Below, piece by piece: positions 11,453 to 46,482 of a DNA stretch of 64,000 bases. The notes under the pieces are model-generated. The model was not told where the DNA came from and did no database searches. It saw only the letters and a list, made by a program, of their open reading frames with translations. The stretch comes from Cyclobacteriaceae bacterium. Lineage in GTDB: Bacteria; Bacteroidota; Bacteroidia; Cytophagales; Cyclobacteriaceae. The position numbers and the translations under genes were made by a program. The first letter of the stretch is position 1. Each line of letters opens with the position of its first letter. The stretch covers positions 1 through 64,000 of the forward strand of contig JALSJD010000072.1 in assembly GCA_026989535.1 (NCBI GenBank). Direction: 5' to 3'.

Positions 11453-13351
11453 CTACTCCACCACCTCAAATTCAATTCTTCGGTTTTGAGAACGGTTAGA
11501 TTCTGTAGAATTATCGGATATAAAATTAGTAGCTCCATAGCCTTTATAACTTAACCTTGATTTGCTTACACCATTGGCAATTAAATAATTGTAAACGGAT
11601 TTTGCGCGCTGTTTAGAAAGCTCTAGGTTGTAAGCATTACTCCCTACATTATCGGTGTAGCCCGCAATTTTAACTTTAGCGATGGAGCTATCTTTTAAGA
11701 GCAATATCATCTTAGATAATTCAGCTTCTGAAGTACCGGTAAGCTCGTAACTATTAAACGCAAAAAACACATTGCTAAGCACCATTTTAGACCCAATTTT
11801 GATAGGAGCTAAGGCTATATTTACCTCCACAGGTTCAAGTAAAGATTGTTTAAGGTTAAAATTCATACTCTTGTATAGATACCCTTTAGCCTCCGCAAAT
11901 AAACCATACTCTTTGCCCTCTGTAAGCACAATTAAATAGCTGCCGTTAATGGAGTCGGAAGTAACCAATTCAATGGCACTATCTGTCTCTAAATCAATGA
12001 GTGAAATAGCAGCCACCAATGGTGTGTTAGTGCTTTTATCTACCACTAAACCAAATACATAGGTGGTTTTATGTTCGATTTGTAGCGTTGGAGGAATATC
12101 TATTTCGAATAAAATGCTGGTAAAGCTATCTCCTTCTTTTTCTTCATGCGAATAATAACCTTTGTTACCATCGGATGAAATATACATAGAGACCTCATCA
12201 TTATGGGTATTAATAGGATACCCGAAATTAGTGGGTTTTGCCCAGCCCAATTCTTCTTTTTCTGTAAAATAGATGTCGTAGCCACCAAAGCCCAGCCTAC
12301 CATCTGTGGCAAAATAGAGCCGTTGTCCGTTGGGGTGTATAAAAGGCGAAATATCATCAAAAGCGGTATTGATATCTATGCCAACATTTTGTGGTTTCGA
12401 CCACTCGTTTTGCTCAGTTAGCGTAGATACGTAAATATCTCTTCGTCCAAAGCCTCCACGCCTGTTGGAGACAAAGTACAGGGTTCTTCCATCTGCACTT
12501 AAGCTTGGTTGTGAGTCCCATGCAGTTGAGTTAATGTTGCTTCCCATATTTTTGGGTGCTTTCCATTCATCTCCTACTTTAGTACTCTCATATAAATCGC
12601 AACTTCCATAACCTTTTCGCCCCATACAGGAGGTAAAGACCAATTTTCTGCCATCGGCTGAGATGGTGCAAGTGCCCTCGTTAAATTCTGTATTTATATT
12701 GCTGGATATGGAAACAGGATTGCTCCAGTTTCCTTGTTTATCCTTAGTACTCAACATAATTTCCTCGTTTTCTTCACGCTTTACAAAAATTAACGCTTGC
12801 TGGTTAGCGGTTAAAACCGGAAAATACTGCTGTTTAAACTGGTTTACGTTGGGCGGCAATGGCCGTGGGTTAAACTGAAAATCATTGATTTTGTAGGTAA
12901 TTGCAAACTCGCAATTTTCACGCATTAATTTGGCTTTGCTTGCATATTTTCCCTTGTGTGAGGTCAGGCGCTGATATTCACCAAGGTTGGTTAATGCGGA
13001 TTCATACAACCCTTCATTAAAATCGTGTAACCCTAAATAATACCATGCACTTGCAAACCTGGTCGTAGTAGGATATCTGGTAACCACTTCTTTATAGCAA
13101 TTCATTTGCAAGCTGTCTTGAAATCTAATCCGATAAATGGTAGATAACTTTAAATAGGCTTCGGCAAAATTAGGATCCTTGGCAAGAGCAGCTTGCAGTT
13201 TATCAAACGCCTTATCAAACGCCCGAGCCCCCATCAATGTGCGAGCTTCGGTATAAAGTTTTATTGCTTTTTTGTTTTTTGAAGTATAGGATTGAGCGCT
13301 GGCAAAGCCAGTGAACAGTAATGGCAAGAGCAAAATTAATAAATAGCGCAT
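11453..13351 (-). CDS. OmpA-family protein with TPR and PD40/WD40-like beta-propeller repeats
   Basis: N-terminal signal and TPR; repeated ADGRKLVFTS/ADGRTLYFVSNR/PNGQRLYFATDG; C-terminal OmpA peptidoglycan-binding motif (IAGYTDNVGSNAYNLELSKQRAKSV). Confidence 0.92.
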   Translation of the reverse strand: MRYLLILLLPLLFTGFASAQSYTSKNKKAIKLYTEARTLMGARAFDKAFDKLQAALAKDPNFAEAYLKLSTIYRIRFQDSLQMNCYKEVVTRYPTTTRFASAWYYLGLHDFNEGLYESALTNLGEYQRLTSHKGKYASKAKLMRENCEFAITYKINDFQFNPRPLPPNVNQFKQQYFPVLTANQQALIFVKREENEEIMLSTKDKQGNWSNPVSISSNINTEFNEGTCTISADGRKLVFTSCMGRKGYGSCDLYESTKVGDEWKAPKNMGSNINSTAWDSQPSLSADGRTLYFVSNRRGGFGRRDIYVSTLTEQNEWSKPQNVGIDINTAFDDISPFIHPNGQRLYFATDGRLGFGGYDIYFTEKEELGWAKPTNFGYPINTHNDEVSMYISSDGNKGYYSHEEKEGDSFTSILFEIDIPPTLQIEHKTTYVFGLVVDKSTNTPLVAAISLIDLETDSAIELVTSDSINGSYLIVLTEGKEYGLFAEAKGYLYKSMNFNLKQSLLEPVEVNIALAPIKIGSKMVLSNVFFAFNSYELTGTSEAELSKMILLLKDSSIAKVKIAGYTDNVGSNAYNLELSKQRAKSVYNYLIANGVSKSRLSYKGYGATNFISDNSTESNRSQNRRIEFEVVE

Positions 13352-38718: not shown

Positions 38719-39324
38719 GTGTTGGCTATCCTTTACCGTAGGTGTTTGGTTCAACAAAGCATAAAAATAATGGGTAATCTAACCACACAAAAAATACACT
38801 TAAAAAACTTGCAAAGTAAATGTTGTGTTAGGGCTATTAAATTAGACCTTGAAAGTATAGGTGTAAAAATACTAAGTTTAAACACCTTTTTTGTGGAAAT
38901 ACAGTATGATAAGAACACAATAAGCAAAAAGAAAATAATTGAAATCTTAGCCCTTTCTGGCGTATCCATAATAAACTCACGAGAAGAAAAAATAATAGAA
39001 GAAGCTAAAAAAGCTGTTTACGAGCTTATATTTGAAATGAATAATGTAGATTCTATTGTGAAAAAATCTGAATATATTGTTGAAAAAACAGGCTACAATT
39101 ATCGATTTATATCTAAACTGTTTTCAGATTATGAGTCTATTACATTAGAAAAATACATTATTCAACAAAAAATTAAAAAAATCAAACAATTAATTATTGA
39201 AGGTGAATTTTCATTAAGTGAAATTGCCTATATGATGGACTATAGCAGTGTGCAATACCTTTCTACTCAATTTAAAAAAGAAACTGGCATAACAGTAAGC
39301 CAGTTTAAAAACAGTACTTTTTGA
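38719..39324 (+). CDS. AraC-family transcriptional regulator
   Basis: C-terminal two-HTH AraC domain (FSLSEIAYMMDYSSVQYLSTQFKKETGITVSQFKNS); N-terminal HMA-like fold lacking CxxC; the start may be ATG 38770 (MGNLTTQ). Confidence 0.9.
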   Translation: MLAILYRRCLVQQSIKIMGNLTTQKIHLKNLQSKCCVRAIKLDLESIGVKILSLNTFFVEIQYDKNTISKKKIIEILALSGVSIINSREEKIIEEAKKAVYELIFEMNNVDSIVKKSEYIVEKTGYNYRFISKLFSDYESITLEKYIIQQKIKKIKQLIIEGEFSLSEIAYMMDYSSVQYLSTQFKKETGITVSQFKNSTF

Positions 39325-40982: not shown

Positions 40983-42332
40983 ATGACCACGAAAAAAAGA
41001 TACGAACGACCAATTATTACAAAAATAAATGCAGGTGTAACCGATAAATTTGGTATGCGACCCAAAATGCCTATAATTTCTAAAATTGAGGGTGTTGCCA
41101 TTACAGATATTATTGCCAAATATGGTTCTCCAGCTTTTGTTATTTCTGAAAAAACTATCCGAAAAACATATAATGAAGCCAAAAGAGCTTTTAGCACTCG
41201 CTATCCTAATGTTCAATTTGCTTGGTCTTATAAAACAAACTACCTAGATGCTGTTTGTCAAATATTTCATTCAGAAGGTGCTTGGGCAGAAGTTGTATCA
41301 GGTTTTGAATACGATAAAGCAATAGCAAATGGAATTCCAGGTAATAAAATACTCTTTAACGGGCCAGATAAATCTAAGGATGATTTAATTAAAGCTGTTG
41401 AAAATGGGGCTTTTATTCACTTAGATCATTTTGATGAACTATATGAGTTATTAAGTATTGCAGATACTTCAAAAAAACGACCCAAAGTAGCAATACGTGT
41501 TAATATGGATACAGGTGTTTATCCGTTATGGGATAGGTTTGGGTTTAACTATGAAAATGGGGAAGCTTGGAATGCTTTAAATCGTATAATGCTAAGTGAA
41601 AAAATGGATTTAGTCGGTTTGCACACGCATATTGGAACCTATATGATGACACCAGACCCTTATGCAGTTGCAGCTTCTAAATTGGCCGAGTTAGCTGTAA
41701 GGGTTGATAAAAAATACAATCACAAAATTAAATATATAGATATGGGTGGAGGTTTTGCTTCAAAAAACACCTTAAAAGGAGCTTACTTGCCCGGAAAAGA
41801 TACCTGTCCAAGCTTTGACCAATATGCTGAAGCAATTACCAATGCTTTAATAAATTCAGAGTTAGATCCTAACAAAATGCCAACCCTTTTCTTAGAAACA
41901 GGCCGTGCCTTAATTGATGATGCTGGTTATTTGGTAGGTACTGTTTTGGCTAACAAAAGATTATCTAATGGAAGGCGCTCTATGATTGTTGATGTTGGAG
42001 TTAATATGTTATTTACTTCTTTTTGGTACGAACACGAAATTTACCCTGTAAAAGAAGTAAGTGCAAATGCAGAAGACACTACTATTTACGGACCTCTTTG
42101 TATGAATATTGATGTAATAAGAGACGTTATCAAATTTCCATTGCTACAAAAGGATGATAACTATGTAATAAAAAGAATTGGAGCCTATAATATGACACAG
42201 TGGATGCAGTTTATTACATTAAGACCCAATATTGTTTTAATTGACATTAATGGTAATACACATATTATTAGAGAAAAAGAAACCAATGAAAGTTTAACCT
42301 CTCACGAAAGAGTTCCTGCCTATTTAAAGTAG
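40983..42332 (+). CDS. Fold III PLP-dependent amino-acid decarboxylase (DapDC/ODC-like)
   Basis: FAWSYKTNYLDAVC (PLP lysine), GLHTHIGTYM, IDMGGGFA, LFLETGRALIDDAGYL. Confidence 0.93.
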   Translation: MTTKKRYERPIITKINAGVTDKFGMRPKMPIISKIEGVAITDIIAKYGSPAFVISEKTIRKTYNEAKRAFSTRYPNVQFAWSYKTNYLDAVCQIFHSEGAWAEVVSGFEYDKAIANGIPGNKILFNGPDKSKDDLIKAVENGAFIHLDHFDELYELLSIADTSKKRPKVAIRVNMDTGVYPLWDRFGFNYENGEAWNALNRIMLSEKMDLVGLHTHIGTYMMTPDPYAVAASKLAELAVRVDKKYNHKIKYIDMGGGFASKNTLKGAYLPGKDTCPSFDQYAEAITNALINSELDPNKMPTLFLETGRALIDDAGYLVGTVLANKRLSNGRRSMIVDVGVNMLFTSFWYEHEIYPVKEVSANAEDTTIYGPLCMNIDVIRDVIKFPLLQKDDNYVIKRIGAYNMTQWMQFITLRPNIVLIDINGNTHIIREKETNESLTSHERVPAYLK

Positions 42333-42339
42333 AAAATTA

Positions 42340-44529
42340 ATGTCGATAAAAGTAAAACCTGCTTTAAAAACTACGCTAAATAGCTATTCTCAGATTTTTT
42401 TCTCTGAGAACAACTTCTTGGCATCATTACTTATTGCGGTTAGTTTTTTAGATCCTTGGGTGGGGTTTTATGGCTTAATTTCTGTGCTATTTGTAAATTT
42501 TACAGCAATAAAATTAGGCTACGATAAATTTACAATACAAAAAGGGCTTTATGGTTTTAATGCGTTGTTAACAGGCTTAGGAACAGGAATGATATATCAA
42601 CCTAGTGTATCGCTCACTATCATAGTTTTATGTATAGCCTTGTTAACTTTGTTTATAACCATAGCACTGCAAGGTGTATTAGCTAAATATGCACTGCCTT
42701 TCCTGAGCATTCCGTTTATTATTGGTATGTGGACAATATTATTAGCAACCAAAGATTTTTCGGCATTAGGGTTGGCAGAAAGAGGCATTTATACTTATAA
42801 TGAATTATACGCCTTAGGAGGTAAAAATTTAGTAAATATTTATGACTGGTTTGGTAATTTACAAGGGTTTGAAAGTATTAAAATATACTTTTTGTCACTC
42901 GGAGCCATCTTTTTTCAAAGTAATGTATTGGCAGGAATAATTATTGCTATAGGCTTGCTTAATTTTTCTAGAATAGCCTTTTCTCTTTCCTTATTAGGTT
43001 TTTATTCGGCTTATTTATTTTATCTTTTTATTGGAGCTAATTTTTCCGAACTGGAATATACATTTATAGGGTTTAACTATATTCTAACAGCAATTGCCAT
43101 TGGTGGGTATTTTATTGTTCCTTCAAAAACATCATATACTTGGGTGATTGTTTTACTTCCAGTTACTATACTTATTGCCTCTAGTTTAGAACATGTTTTT
43201 TCGGTATGGCAAATTCCTATATACTCTTTACCCTTTAATATTACCGTATTACTATTTATTTATATTCTCAAATTAAGAATTACTAAAAGTGAGAGCCTTA
43301 ATGATTTATTTGTTAAGCTAGAAACCCCAGAACAAACCTTATACCTCTATAAAACAGTTACCGAAGAATTTAAAAGTAAAAATTATTATCCTATTCACTT
43401 ACCCATAAAAGGCGATTGGAATGTTATGCAAGCTCATAACGGAAAATATACCCATAAAGATAAATGGCGACACGCATGGGATTTTATTATTTTAAATGAA
43501 GAAGGAAATCAGTTTAGTGGTTCGGGCGACTATTGTGAAGATTATTATTGTTATAATAAGCCTGTTTTTTCACCATCTCACGGATACATTGTTGGTATAA
43601 CAGATGGTATTGAAGATAACATTATTGGGGAAGTAAATACTGCCCAAAACTGGGGAAACTCTATTGTTATTAAACATACCGAATTTTTATATACACAAGT
43701 TAGCCATTTAAAAGCTGAAAGTATTAAAGTTAAAATTGGCGATTATGTAAAAAAAGGGAAACTCCTAGGAAATGTAGGTAATTCAGGTCATTCACCATAC
43801 CCTCATTTGCATTTTCAAATACAAGCAACGCCTTATGTAGGTTCAGAAACCTTAGACTATCCTTTATATAATTATATTGTTAAAAATCAATCTGAAATTG
43901 AATTAATTACTTTTGGTAAACCCCAAGAAAATCATTTAGTTGCCCCTGCTGAGTTAGATGAGATACTTAAAAATGCATTAAATTTTATTCCAGGAAAAAT
44001 ATTGCAAGTTTCGGAAGAAGGTAATATCTATAAAACAGAGATGTGGAAAATTCAAAAAAATGCGTACAATCAGACCTATATTTCAGACGAAAAAAGCGAC
44101 TCGTCTATTTTCTTTTATACCACAGAAGCAGGAGTGTTTTTTGCAAATTTTAAAGGAGATAAAGGGAGTAATTTATTTATATTTTTCAAATCACTGTACA
44201 ACATAAATAAGTCATTTTATAAAAACATAGAAATTAAAAATAACATAAGACCAGATTTGTTTTTTAGCAAACCTGTAATGTGGATGCAAGATATTATAGC
44301 ACCCTTTTATCTTTTTTTGGAGGTTAAATTCTCTTTAAACTACATAGAAAAGGATGATGAATTTATGCCTAATGCTATAAATATTAAAACAAAAAACACC
44401 AAATATTTCTTAAAAAAATCTATTAATGAGGAAGTTTTTGAGATTACTATTTTTAGAAAAGGGACTATCGATATACAATCTAAAAACACATCAAAAAAAA
44501 TAAGAGTTGAAACATTGAAAAACGTATAA
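42340..44529 (+). CDS. Urea-transporter-like membrane domain fused to M23 metallopeptidase
   Basis: N-term FTIQKGLYGFNALLTGLGTGMIY (UT family); C-term M23 residues KWRHAWDF, SPSHGYIVGI and GNSGHSPYPHLHFQIQ; further about 200-aa C-terminal extension. Confidence 0.88.
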   Translation: MSIKVKPALKTTLNSYSQIFFSENNFLASLLIAVSFLDPWVGFYGLISVLFVNFTAIKLGYDKFTIQKGLYGFNALLTGLGTGMIYQPSVSLTIIVLCIALLTLFITIALQGVLAKYALPFLSIPFIIGMWTILLATKDFSALGLAERGIYTYNELYALGGKNLVNIYDWFGNLQGFESIKIYFLSLGAIFFQSNVLAGIIIAIGLLNFSRIAFSLSLLGFYSAYLFYLFIGANFSELEYTFIGFNYILTAIAIGGYFIVPSKTSYTWVIVLLPVTILIASSLEHVFSVWQIPIYSLPFNITVLLFIYILKLRITKSESLNDLFVKLETPEQTLYLYKTVTEEFKSKNYYPIHLPIKGDWNVMQAHNGKYTHKDKWRHAWDFIILNEEGNQFSGSGDYCEDYYCYNKPVFSPSHGYIVGITDGIEDNIIGEVNTAQNWGNSIVIKHTEFLYTQVSHLKAESIKVKIGDYVKKGKLLGNVGNSGHSPYPHLHFQIQATPYVGSETLDYPLYNYIVKNQSEIELITFGKPQENHLVAPAELDEILKNALNFIPGKILQVSEEGNIYKTEMWKIQKNAYNQTYISDEKSDSSIFFYTTEAGVFFANFKGDKGSNLFIFFKSLYNINKSFYKNIEIKNNIRPDLFFSKPVMWMQDIIAPFYLFLEVKFSLNYIEKDDEFMPNAINIKTKNTKYFLKKSINEEVFEITIFRKGTIDIQSKNTSKKIRVETLKNV

Positions 44530-44531
44530 TT

Positions 44532-45842
44532 ATGAAAAAAATAATGTATATAGTTTTACTATTATTTTTCGTAAATAATAGTGCTGCCCAAATAGTGCAA
44601 AATGTTCCTTCTGTTGATAAAAAAACCTACGAATTATACCTAGCAAAAGATTGGGATAAGTTAATAAAAATAGGGAAAAATGCATTAAGAAATGGCATTG
44701 ACTTTTATTACCTAAACTACAGATTAGGTATTGCTTATTATGAAAAGCAAAATTATGCACAGGCAATAAAATACTTTAAAAAAGTAAACCTATCCAATCC
44801 AAATGATGATACCATAAAAGAATATTTGTATTATTCGTATTTGTTATCTAGTCGTTATGATGATGCTAGACTACTAGGAAACAACTTTTCTGATAAAATG
44901 AAAAAGCGCTTGGGCATAAGAATAGCAAACCCGTTTTTTAGTGCCATACATCTTTCGGCTAAATTTGATATTGTTGAAGATTATACTTACACATCTCAAT
45001 CAAATGAAAAAATAGACCAACAGGTAGTTCAAAAGCAATCTTGGTATAGTTTTGGCGCTGAGCATTTAATAGGGAATAACATTACTCTAATGGGCGTTTT
45101 TAGCAAAACAAATATCGAAAATGCAGTTAATAATACTAATCCTGATTTGCCAGAAAAATACACAGGTAAAGTCAATCAAAATCAGTATTATGTATCTTTA
45201 AAATACCATTTAGGAAATGGATTTAATACCGCTTTAGGCTTGCACTATTTAAGTACAGAATTGTACGCGCCAACAACTAGAACTCAAGGCAATGGCAAGT
45301 CTAGAAATTTTAACTTATATTCTTATAAAGAAAAGTCATTTGTAGTATCAGCCAATATTAGCAAATCATTCTCCATATTTAATGCCACTTTAGAGACCTC
45401 TATTGCCAACTTAAATAATAAAACCCAAATACAGCCTTCTCTAAGCTTGAGAATTTATCCTTTTGGAAACAATACGTTCTTTTTAGAAACAAAGGGAATT
45501 TATATAGCTGAAACCGATGGGGTAATAAGCACAAACTATTCGACTATAAAGCAGAGTTTTGGCTTTAAAATTAAGAAATACTCTTTTATCAGCCCATCCA
45601 TTACTTATGGCGAATTACTTAATTTTACGGATTTTAATGCATTTATAGTTAATAACGATATAGATAAAACAAAACTGAGGATTGAGAACTATATTAACAT
45701 AGGATTTAACGAAGGCTATTTTAATGTGTTTTTTAATTATAGATACAATATTAAAGAGAATACCTATAAGATAAACAATGCTAATAAGGCCATAGATTAT
45801 AACTCACAAAATATTTTATTAGGCATAAAATGGTACTTCTAA
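44532..45842 (+). CDS. TPR protein with C-terminal outer-membrane beta-barrel-like region
   Basis: Signal peptide, TPR (NYRLGIAYYEKQNYAQAIKYFKKVNLSNPNDD), alternating amphipathic strands, terminal GIKWYF. Confidence 0.8.
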   Translation: MKKIMYIVLLLFFVNNSAAQIVQNVPSVDKKTYELYLAKDWDKLIKIGKNALRNGIDFYYLNYRLGIAYYEKQNYAQAIKYFKKVNLSNPNDDTIKEYLYYSYLLSSRYDDARLLGNNFSDKMKKRLGIRIANPFFSAIHLSAKFDIVEDYTYTSQSNEKIDQQVVQKQSWYSFGAEHLIGNNITLMGVFSKTNIENAVNNTNPDLPEKYTGKVNQNQYYVSLKYHLGNGFNTALGLHYLSTELYAPTTRTQGNGKSRNFNLYSYKEKSFVVSANISKSFSIFNATLETSIANLNNKTQIQPSLSLRIYPFGNNTFFLETKGIYIAETDGVISTNYSTIKQSFGFKIKKYSFISPSITYGELLNFTDFNAFIVNNDIDKTKLRIENYINIGFNEGYFNVFFNYRYNIKENTYKINNANKAIDYNSQNILLGIKWYF

Positions 45843-45864: not shown

Positions 45865-46482
45865 ATGAAGCTGCTAAATATCACAATAATTGCTTTGTTC
45901 TTAAACATAAATTTTGCTTTTGGGCAAACAAATAAAGAAATAATCAATGCTTTTAAAAAAAGTTATGAGCTGGAAGCAACGGGTTCGTATAAAGAAGCAT
46001 CGAATGAATTAAAAAAAGTATATGCTGATGATTCTTATGAGATAAACCTACGTTTAGGCTGGTTAGAGTATAATGCTGGTATGTTTCAAGAATCTGCTGC
46101 CTATTACCAAAGTGCACTAAATTTAAAACCCTATTCAGAAGAAGCAAAATTTGGATTAATCAATCCAAAAGTAGCTCAAGGAAAATGGAATGAGGCTATA
46201 AAAATATATAATAACATATTGTCTATAAATTCATTAAATACAGTAGCAAACTACCGTCTTGGGCTTATTTATTTCGGACAAAAAAAGTATTTAAATGCTA
46301 AAGAGTACTTTGGGAAAGTAGTAAACTTATACCCTTTTGATTATGACAGTTTACTGATGCTTGCTTGGACTAACTACTATCTAGGAAAATATAGTACTGC
46401 AAAGGTTTTATTTAACAAAGCACTTATGAATAGACCTAATGATAAATCTGCTCAAGAAGGACTTGATTTATTAGACCTATAA
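45865..46482 (+). CDS. Periplasmic TPR protein
   Basis: Signal MKLLNITIIALFLNINFAFGQ and several TPR units. Confidence 0.85.
   Translation: MKLLNITIIALFLNINFAFGQTNKEIINAFKKSYELEATGSYKEASNELKKVYADDSYEINLRLGWLEYNAGMFQESAAYYQSALNLKPYSEEAKFGLINPKVAQGKWNEAIKIYNNILSINSLNTVANYRLGLIYFGQKKYLNAKEYFGKVVNLYPFDYDSLLMLAWTNYYLGKYSTAKVLFNKALMNRPNDKSAQEGLDLLDL

Follow-up and report, generated by a model that had tools for sequence, protein, structure and literature searches.

A leader-like N-terminal tag on a PLP decarboxylase and its probable docking on a neighbouring PqqD-like protein

RRE–leader recognition is familiar as the step with which RiPP biosynthesis begins. Here we describe an operon in which such a module appears to serve a metabolic enzyme: a PLP-dependent decarboxylase carries a leader-like motif at its N terminus and, as an earlier note on this DNA had reported, a PqqD-like RRE is encoded two genes upstream. 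The operon lies in a 64,000-nucleotide stretch of the genome of a Cyclobacteriaceae bacterium (assembly GCA_026989535.1, contig JALSJD010000072.1, positions 1 to 64,000 of the forward strand), hereafter the window. The same note had proposed that the decarboxylase docks on the RRE through its own leader-like tag; conservation of the tag, retained leader-binding residues in PqqD and covariation between the two strongly support this idea, and an RRE–leader module redirected to an enzyme is the best reading of these sequences. A literature search (most subscription journals not covered) returned no report of the operon or of an RRE with an enzyme client. If the reading is correct, orphan PqqD genes merit re-examination for enzyme clients, the termini of large proteins are worth searching for leader motifs, and position 64 of PqqD offers a natural code by which RREs distinguish Tyr from Phe, open to direct test. 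It would also point to a new and widespread pathway for decarboxylating conjugates, equipped with an export system of its own.

The operon and its spread among genomes

Window open reading frames (ORFs) and profile matches define a six-gene operon on the + strand (Table 1). Directly upstream in the window, at 38719–39324, lies a gene for an AraC-type regulator; the 23 fetched loci show no homologue of it (E ≤ 1e-5) in the neighbourhood of the operon.

Table 1. Features of the operon, in window positions
Feature	Position	Strand	Evidence or remark
PqqD-like discrete RRE, 80 aa	39667..39909	+	PF05402 match; AF2 pLDDT 93.3; Foldseek matches to lasso RRE–leader complexes
PqqD Asn27 codon	39745..39747	+	Equivalent to LppB N33; N in 142/143 operons
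PqqD residue 64 (Asn) codon	39856..39858	+	Helix-3 position covarying with tag residue 7; aligns to PbaB1 Q79 = LppB D70
ATP-grasp ligase (PylC/carbamoyl-phosphate-synthase-like), 347 aa	39915..40958	+	PF15632, PF02655; NF009405 at 100 bits, far under its cut-off of 390
PLP fold-III (alanine-racemase-fold) decarboxylase with tag, FslC/FigC-like, 449 aa	40983..42332	+	PF02784/PF00278; Foldseek best match 7kh2
Docking tag (putative), decarboxylase residues 7–24, YERPIITKINAGVTDKFG	41001..41054	+	Y7, P10 and I12 as RRE-leader element; K22 and G24 as second conserved element
Linker, decarboxylase residues 25–34	41055..41084	+	Sequence variable, length fixed
Urea-transporter (UT) channel domain fused to M23 peptidase domain	42340..44529	+	PF03253 4.9e-61, PF01551 1.8e-13
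TPR protein, N-terminal signal-like sequence	44532..45842	+	Profile scan; probably outer-membrane
TPR protein, N-terminal signal-like sequence	45865..46482	+	Profile scan; probably periplasmic

A protein search of 293 relatives placed the decarboxylase (E ≤ 1e-60) in 24 genomes, the window's included. All 23 fetched loci have PqqD, ATP-grasp and decarboxylase genes in the same order and a tagged decarboxylase, with UT and TPR genes where the contig permits. Homologues of the UT–M23 gene are present in 22 of them, of the first TPR gene in 21 and of the second in 20; the exceptions are loci that end too early (L049, which ends within the decarboxylase, for all three genes, L039 for both TPR genes and L042 for the second). 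A contig scan found at least 584 decarboxylase relatives, mostly in Bacteroidota and neighbouring groups to judge by record titles. Among the best 80 of these at least 584 relatives, 79 match the tag regular expression, the only non-match (L151) differing at one position (YESPSIKQINAGITSKFG), and PqqD adjoins the decarboxylase locus in 74. A phylum sample of 395 genomes gave decarboxylase matches at E ≤ 1e-45 in 36, with 34 at E ≤ 1e-170; the two most distant matches (G434 and G601, about 1e-47) align only from residue 31 or 33. Twenty more loci from the phylum sample, the most divergent included, all have PqqD, ATP-grasp, tag and UT, and PqqD lies within the fetched stretch in 29 of 31 additional loci. 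The ligase was detected in 27 of 296 genomes, every one of them also positive for the decarboxylase.

The window, the 23 fetched loci, the best 80 of at least 584, the 20 and the 31 make up 155 loci, some of them drawn from one and the same genome; 143 operons remain once this redundancy is removed. Across syntenic operons the tag is conserved (155 of 155 loci), and it is not equally common where an RRE is missing: PqqD is adjacent in 147 of the 155, window counted, and is encoded elsewhere in the same draft genome for four more (L115, L094, L127 and L137). At the remaining four (L112, L120, L272 and L294) the contig breaks near the decarboxylase gene, and a search of the incomplete draft genomes of L112 and L120 found no PqqD. 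In one genome (G293, loci L115 and L162) the operon is split, with the tagged decarboxylase alone and PqqD and ATP-grasp on another contig; the Tyr–Asp pairing of tag and PqqD, described below, is kept there. At one locus (L050, genome G088), the decarboxylase is broken into two ORFs of 304 and 164 aa, through either a frameshift or a sequencing error.

The N-terminal tag of the decarboxylase

The extension described in the earlier note is real: the decarboxylase ORF starts MTTKKRYERPIITKINAGVTDKFGMR, 26 residues encoded at 40983–41060, and its N terminus reads MTTKKRYERPIITKINAGVTDKFGMRPK. About 30 residues, not the roughly 40 then given, precede the homology to PLP-barrel enzymes, because the FslC and LysA matches start at residues 31–34 and the solved FslC aligns from profile position 28. 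The motif is [YF]E[RK]Px[IL]xK...GxxxK[FY]G. Residue 7 is Tyr in 97 of the 143 operons and Phe in 46; P10, K22 and I/L/V/M12 occur in 143/143 and G24 in 141/143, although the tag regular expressions require P10, K/R22 and G/A/S24, so that conservation at these positions is in part imposed by the search. Every locus fitted the pattern used to locate the tag, and L151 failed only a stricter one. Mean column entropy over the 143 operons is 1.26 bits for the tag, 1.15 for the catalytic body and 2.56 for the linker, and the distance from the end of the tag to the GSP motif is 23 residues in 140 operons and 25 in three. An AF2 monomer model built on a 50-sequence alignment gives residues 1–25 a pLDDT below 50, against a mean of 86.7 for the decarboxylase. 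The tag is therefore about as conserved as the catalytic domain yet predicted to be disordered, a combination that fits a docking motif.

The tag is no chance resemblance and is specific to this family. FslC, DapDC and both paralogues encoded in the genome of the window have no such start, in line with the earlier expectation that DapDC/ODC proteins outside the operon would lack the motif. The tag pattern occurs near the N terminus of none of 5,533 other ORFs at the best 80 of at least 584 loci. A tag-only profile recovered 33 of the 34 genomes with this decarboxylase family among the 395 of the phylum sample and found nothing else convincing there at E ≤ 0.01; in the one genome missed (G538), the tag is visible at its locus L213. 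Compared with NCBIfam and Pfam, the bare tag resembles a crocagin precursor in one of 15 cases (E 0.074) and DUF5972 in three of 15 (best E 0.025), all weak matches that we set aside as evidence. A stop-broken, tag-like stretch, LLEKLNGGLPSKFG, at 12818–12874 of contig C7 in genome G051 (L067) may be a remnant; no convincing operon gene lies alongside it.

In the available part of PMC13381572, the lasso RRE leader motif is given as [Y/W]xxPx[L/V/I/A/F/Y]. Tags with Tyr (97/143) fit this consensus and those with Phe (46/143) fall outside it, and the K22/G24 element is unaccounted for by known RRE contacts. A reading compatible with docking, which we judge unlikely, makes the tag itself a substrate: PqqD would offer it to the ATP-grasp enzyme, which would acylate or aminoacylate K22 or a nearby residue, as a carrier arm or a regulatory modification. 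The near-invariance of K22 and G24, neither of which the lasso RRE contacts need as far as the accessible part of that source describes them, speaks for it, as does the constant spacing to the enzyme; so does the precedent of MccE and BtrK, which decarboxylate peptide- or carrier-attached groups (PMC7857480, available part). The sequences show no sign of modification, however, and the ligase profile is of the small-molecule carbamoyl-phosphate-synthase (CPS)/PylC type.

PqqD as a probable leader-binding RRE and its covariation with the tag

The PqqD of the window scores 39.2 bits against PF05402 (cut-off 23.4), and PqqD set A4 matches in 18 of 18. The closest Foldseek matches to its model are the leader-bound lasso RREs 6jx3, 5v1u and 5v1v (TM 0.86–0.92), and its profile matches TbiB1 (8.1e-11) and TfuB1 (4.4e-9). 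A gapless alignment to PbaB1 (9x90), whose register uses an inferred offset of 18 in the deposited chain, equates PqqD residues 27, 64, 68 and 72 with PbaB1 G42, Q79, F83 and L87. G42 and Q79 correspond to N33 and D70 of LppB (PMC13381572, in part), and F83 and L87 would by spacing be LppB F74 and M78. According to the available text of that paper, LppB D70 hydrogen-bonds the leader Tyr and D70A weakens binding; N33 holds the leader in its kink at the conserved Pro, and N33A nearly abolishes binding; and PbaB1 G42N/Q79D gains binding of Tyr leaders. In PqqD, F68 is kept in 138 and L72 in 131 of the 143 operons, and with Tyr tags residue 64 is D, N or H in 97 of 97. By profile, fold and leader-binding residues the protein is an RRE of the PF05402 type, and it is predicted to bind peptide.

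The discrete lasso RREs TbiB1 (5v1u/5v1v), TfuB1/FusB1 (6jx3) and PbaB1 (9x90) and the LPP RRE LppB (9x8z) thus share with this PqqD the RRE fold and, as far as the accessible sources go, the Asn at the Pro kink, a polar helix-3 residue for Tyr and the cleft Phe; their clients share [Y/W]xxPx[L/V/I] with the tag. Here, by contrast, the predicted client is a 449-aa metabolic enzyme bearing the motif at its N terminus, not a precursor peptide, and Phe may replace the leader Tyr with a matching change in the RRE. PqqD of PQQ biosynthesis (3g2b, 5sxy) is likewise a PF05402 protein and a discrete adaptor beside its client, whereas the present operon lacks PqqA and PqqE, and its PqqD is closer to lasso RREs in sequence and structure.

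That matching change was visible at position 64. Tyr tags pair with D (82), N (13) or H (2), and Phe tags with Y (37), S (7), F (1) or H (1), such that a rule assigning D/N/H to Tyr and Y/S/F to Phe is correct in 142 of 143 operons. It holds in 27 of 28 operons that were not used in finding it; the sole exception among these (L299) has a Phe tag with His64. Across 848 columns in the three proteins, PqqD64 explains 100% of the Tyr/Phe entropy of the tag in 115 non-redundant operons (runner-up 60%), and 98% against 61% for the next best in the 143. By APC-corrected mutual information, tag 7–PqqD64 ranks first of 214,829 inter-protein column pairs (Z 14.1).

On a tree of 119 operons built from ATP-grasp and the decarboxylase body, with tag and PqqD left out, the tag changes four times and the PqqD64 class four times, and three of three supported independent pairs agree; with 143 operons the changes number four and five, and on average 3.7 of 4 independent pairs agree. 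Sign tests on these pairs give p 0.25 (119 operons) and 0.125–0.25 (143 operons), and are unable to reach 0.05 because only about four to five switches underlie the pattern. This scarcity of switches is what would favour phylogenetic hitch-hiking without any contact, which we nevertheless consider extremely improbable: the runner-up among columns with the same phylogeny explains only about 60% of the entropy, the PqqD64 column holds the leader Tyr in crystal structures (as described in the accessible part of the source), and on the 119-operon tree Tyr was regained with three different residues, D, N and H. The weight of the covariation comes from its top rank over columns that share its history and from the fact that this column is a structurally known Tyr contact. 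Tag and neighbouring PqqD seem to evolve together as if in contact.

Two other high-scoring pairs were rejected. ATP-grasp 285–tag 20, the strongest pair between ligase and tag (Z 11.4), has one of six independent pairs in agreement, and the ligase residue changes once on the tree; the signal is a single deep event, so we claim no contact of the ligase with the tag, and it does not help the reading of the tag as a substrate. PqqD64–tag 21 (Z 12.2) is unsupported by independent pairs.

The same statistics bear on whether the N-terminal arm is structural, for example swapped across the decarboxylase dimer, while PqqD serves another client. A contact made only in the dimer would appear disordered in the monomer run, and the fixed distance to the enzyme suits such an arm. 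The strongest partner of the tag is PqqD64, whereas its best pair with a column of the decarboxylase body reaches Z 9.0; the motif is that of RRE leaders (in the accessible part of PMC13381572), and FslC and DapDC chains do without it. We therefore hold a structural arm to be highly improbable.

Precursor search, substrate class and proposed pathway

In published systems a precursor is the usual client of a discrete PqqD-like protein, and the gene for such a protein, when it lies close to enzymes and transporters, is taken to indicate a RiPP cluster (PMC7470986, available part); discrete RREs bind the leader and recruit modifying enzymes (PMC13381572 and PMC7470986, both in part). An ordinary RiPP cluster, in which PqqD would serve an overlooked free precursor with the same leader and the tag would bring a tailoring decarboxylase into the complex, would agree with this habit and with decarboxylases such as MccE, which work on peptide products (PMC7857480, in part). 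We find it very unlikely. The surroundings of 123 operons contain 1,856 small ORFs on the same strand; none of these matches the tag profile and they form no family present in more than five loci, which bears out the earlier observation that a free precursor is absent. Searches of 195 and 395 genomes with the tag profile returned the decarboxylase and otherwise only weak or broken matches; of those read singly (L068–L074, L078, L242–L246 and L067), none is a precursor. No lasso cyclase or leader peptidase was found among the nine window genes scanned. In place of a short core, the tag is followed by some 420 residues of enzyme in which K84, C373 and D377 are conserved, a departure from the leader–core arrangement. 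With neither precursor nor core, the operon does not look like a RiPP cluster; on present evidence the module would work like an RRE–leader pair outside a RiPP pathway.

Graspetide loci of Bacteroidota also encode an ATP-grasp enzyme with a small helper protein (PMC8939145, in part), and the word 'decarboxylase' does not occur in the main text of that study. Unlike the microviridin-type ligases of graspetides, which act with a precursor, the ATP-grasp here has CPS/PylC-like profiles and no precursor was found near the operons; its E280, N282 and R284 are each kept in 143 of 143 operons.

As for the enzyme, its best NCBIfam match is FslC (NF041039), at 236 bits below the cut-off of 500, and LysA (TIGR01048) also falls below, at 219.9 bits against 297.9. 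K84 is present in 143 of 143 operons, C373 in 139, and M374 and D377 in 140 each, with three gaps at each of the last three positions. The FslC/FigC N-citrylornithine decarboxylase (7kh2), of the clade of SbnH, MccE and BtrK, is the best match in both sequence and structure, and its C354–M355 aligns with C373–M374. Met374 stands where LysA has an acidic residue after the catalytic Cys; in FigC, M355 stands in for the acidic residue that binds the free side-chain amine (PMC7857480, available part). An identity as DapDC or ODC was accordingly dropped, given the sub-threshold LysA score, the solved FslC as nearest relative and the non-acidic Met374. The FigC-type Met points to a conjugated amino acid as the probable substrate, and the ATP-grasp ligase may be what makes it; the relatives MccE and BtrK decarboxylate amino acids attached to a peptide-nucleotide and a carrier, respectively (PMC7857480, in part). 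Two differences from FslC/FigC remain: the solved FslC has no tag, and the partner is here an ATP-grasp ligase and there an NIS synthetase.

We think it highly probable that the disordered tag docks the decarboxylase in the PqqD cleft, most likely beside the ATP-grasp enzyme, where a conjugate would be made and decarboxylated and its product then exported. Residues 1–24, with [YF]xxPx[IL] of the lasso/PQQ leader type, would lie in the leader cleft, and PqqD would presumably bind them physically. It would act as an adaptor, as in discrete-RRE pathways, with a catalytically intact enzyme as client in place of a precursor peptide, and would hold the decarboxylase adjacent to the ligase, which adjacency and co-occurrence suggest as its natural second partner. 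The ligase would make an amide or peptide conjugate, which would be decarboxylated in the same complex. The contact between PqqD and ligase and the order of the chemistry are put forward more tentatively, as is export; its supposed route, by way of the UT/M23 channel and both TPR proteins, is guessed from the order of the genes.

In butirosin biosynthesis, the ATP-grasp enzyme BtrJ loads the carrier BtrI. The BtrK/BtrI system resembles the present one in that BtrK, an AR-fold decarboxylase like ours, acts on a protein-bound amino acid (PMC7857480, in part), and differs in its separate carrier protein, of which none was identified among the operon genes. In a further reading, which we take to be unlikely, the decarboxylase would be its own 'precursor': PqqD would present the arm, the ATP-grasp enzyme would load an amino acid on K22 and the arm would swing into the active site. 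The invariance of K22 and the constant spacing of 23 residues (140/143) leave room for such a built-in carrier, in which RiPP parts would follow carrier-protein logic and the enzyme itself would play the carrier.

Several features of the operon vary or depart from known families. The UT–M23 protein retains the HxH motif (PHxHF) in the 22 aligned members. The canonical M23 motif is HxxxD; the same 22 members read W-x-x-A-x-D and so lack its His, four residues ahead of the metal-binding Asp, which may mean an altered metal site. In L097, L102, L108 and L110, mutually similar and apparently secreted proteins, 259–260 aa where intact, are encoded between ATP-grasp and decarboxylase. Four other loci (L130, L139, L154 and L158) have an extra gene of about 276–315 aa between decarboxylase and UT; its products are mutually similar and, we assume, resemble eIF2B-like/sugar-phosphate isomerase proteins.
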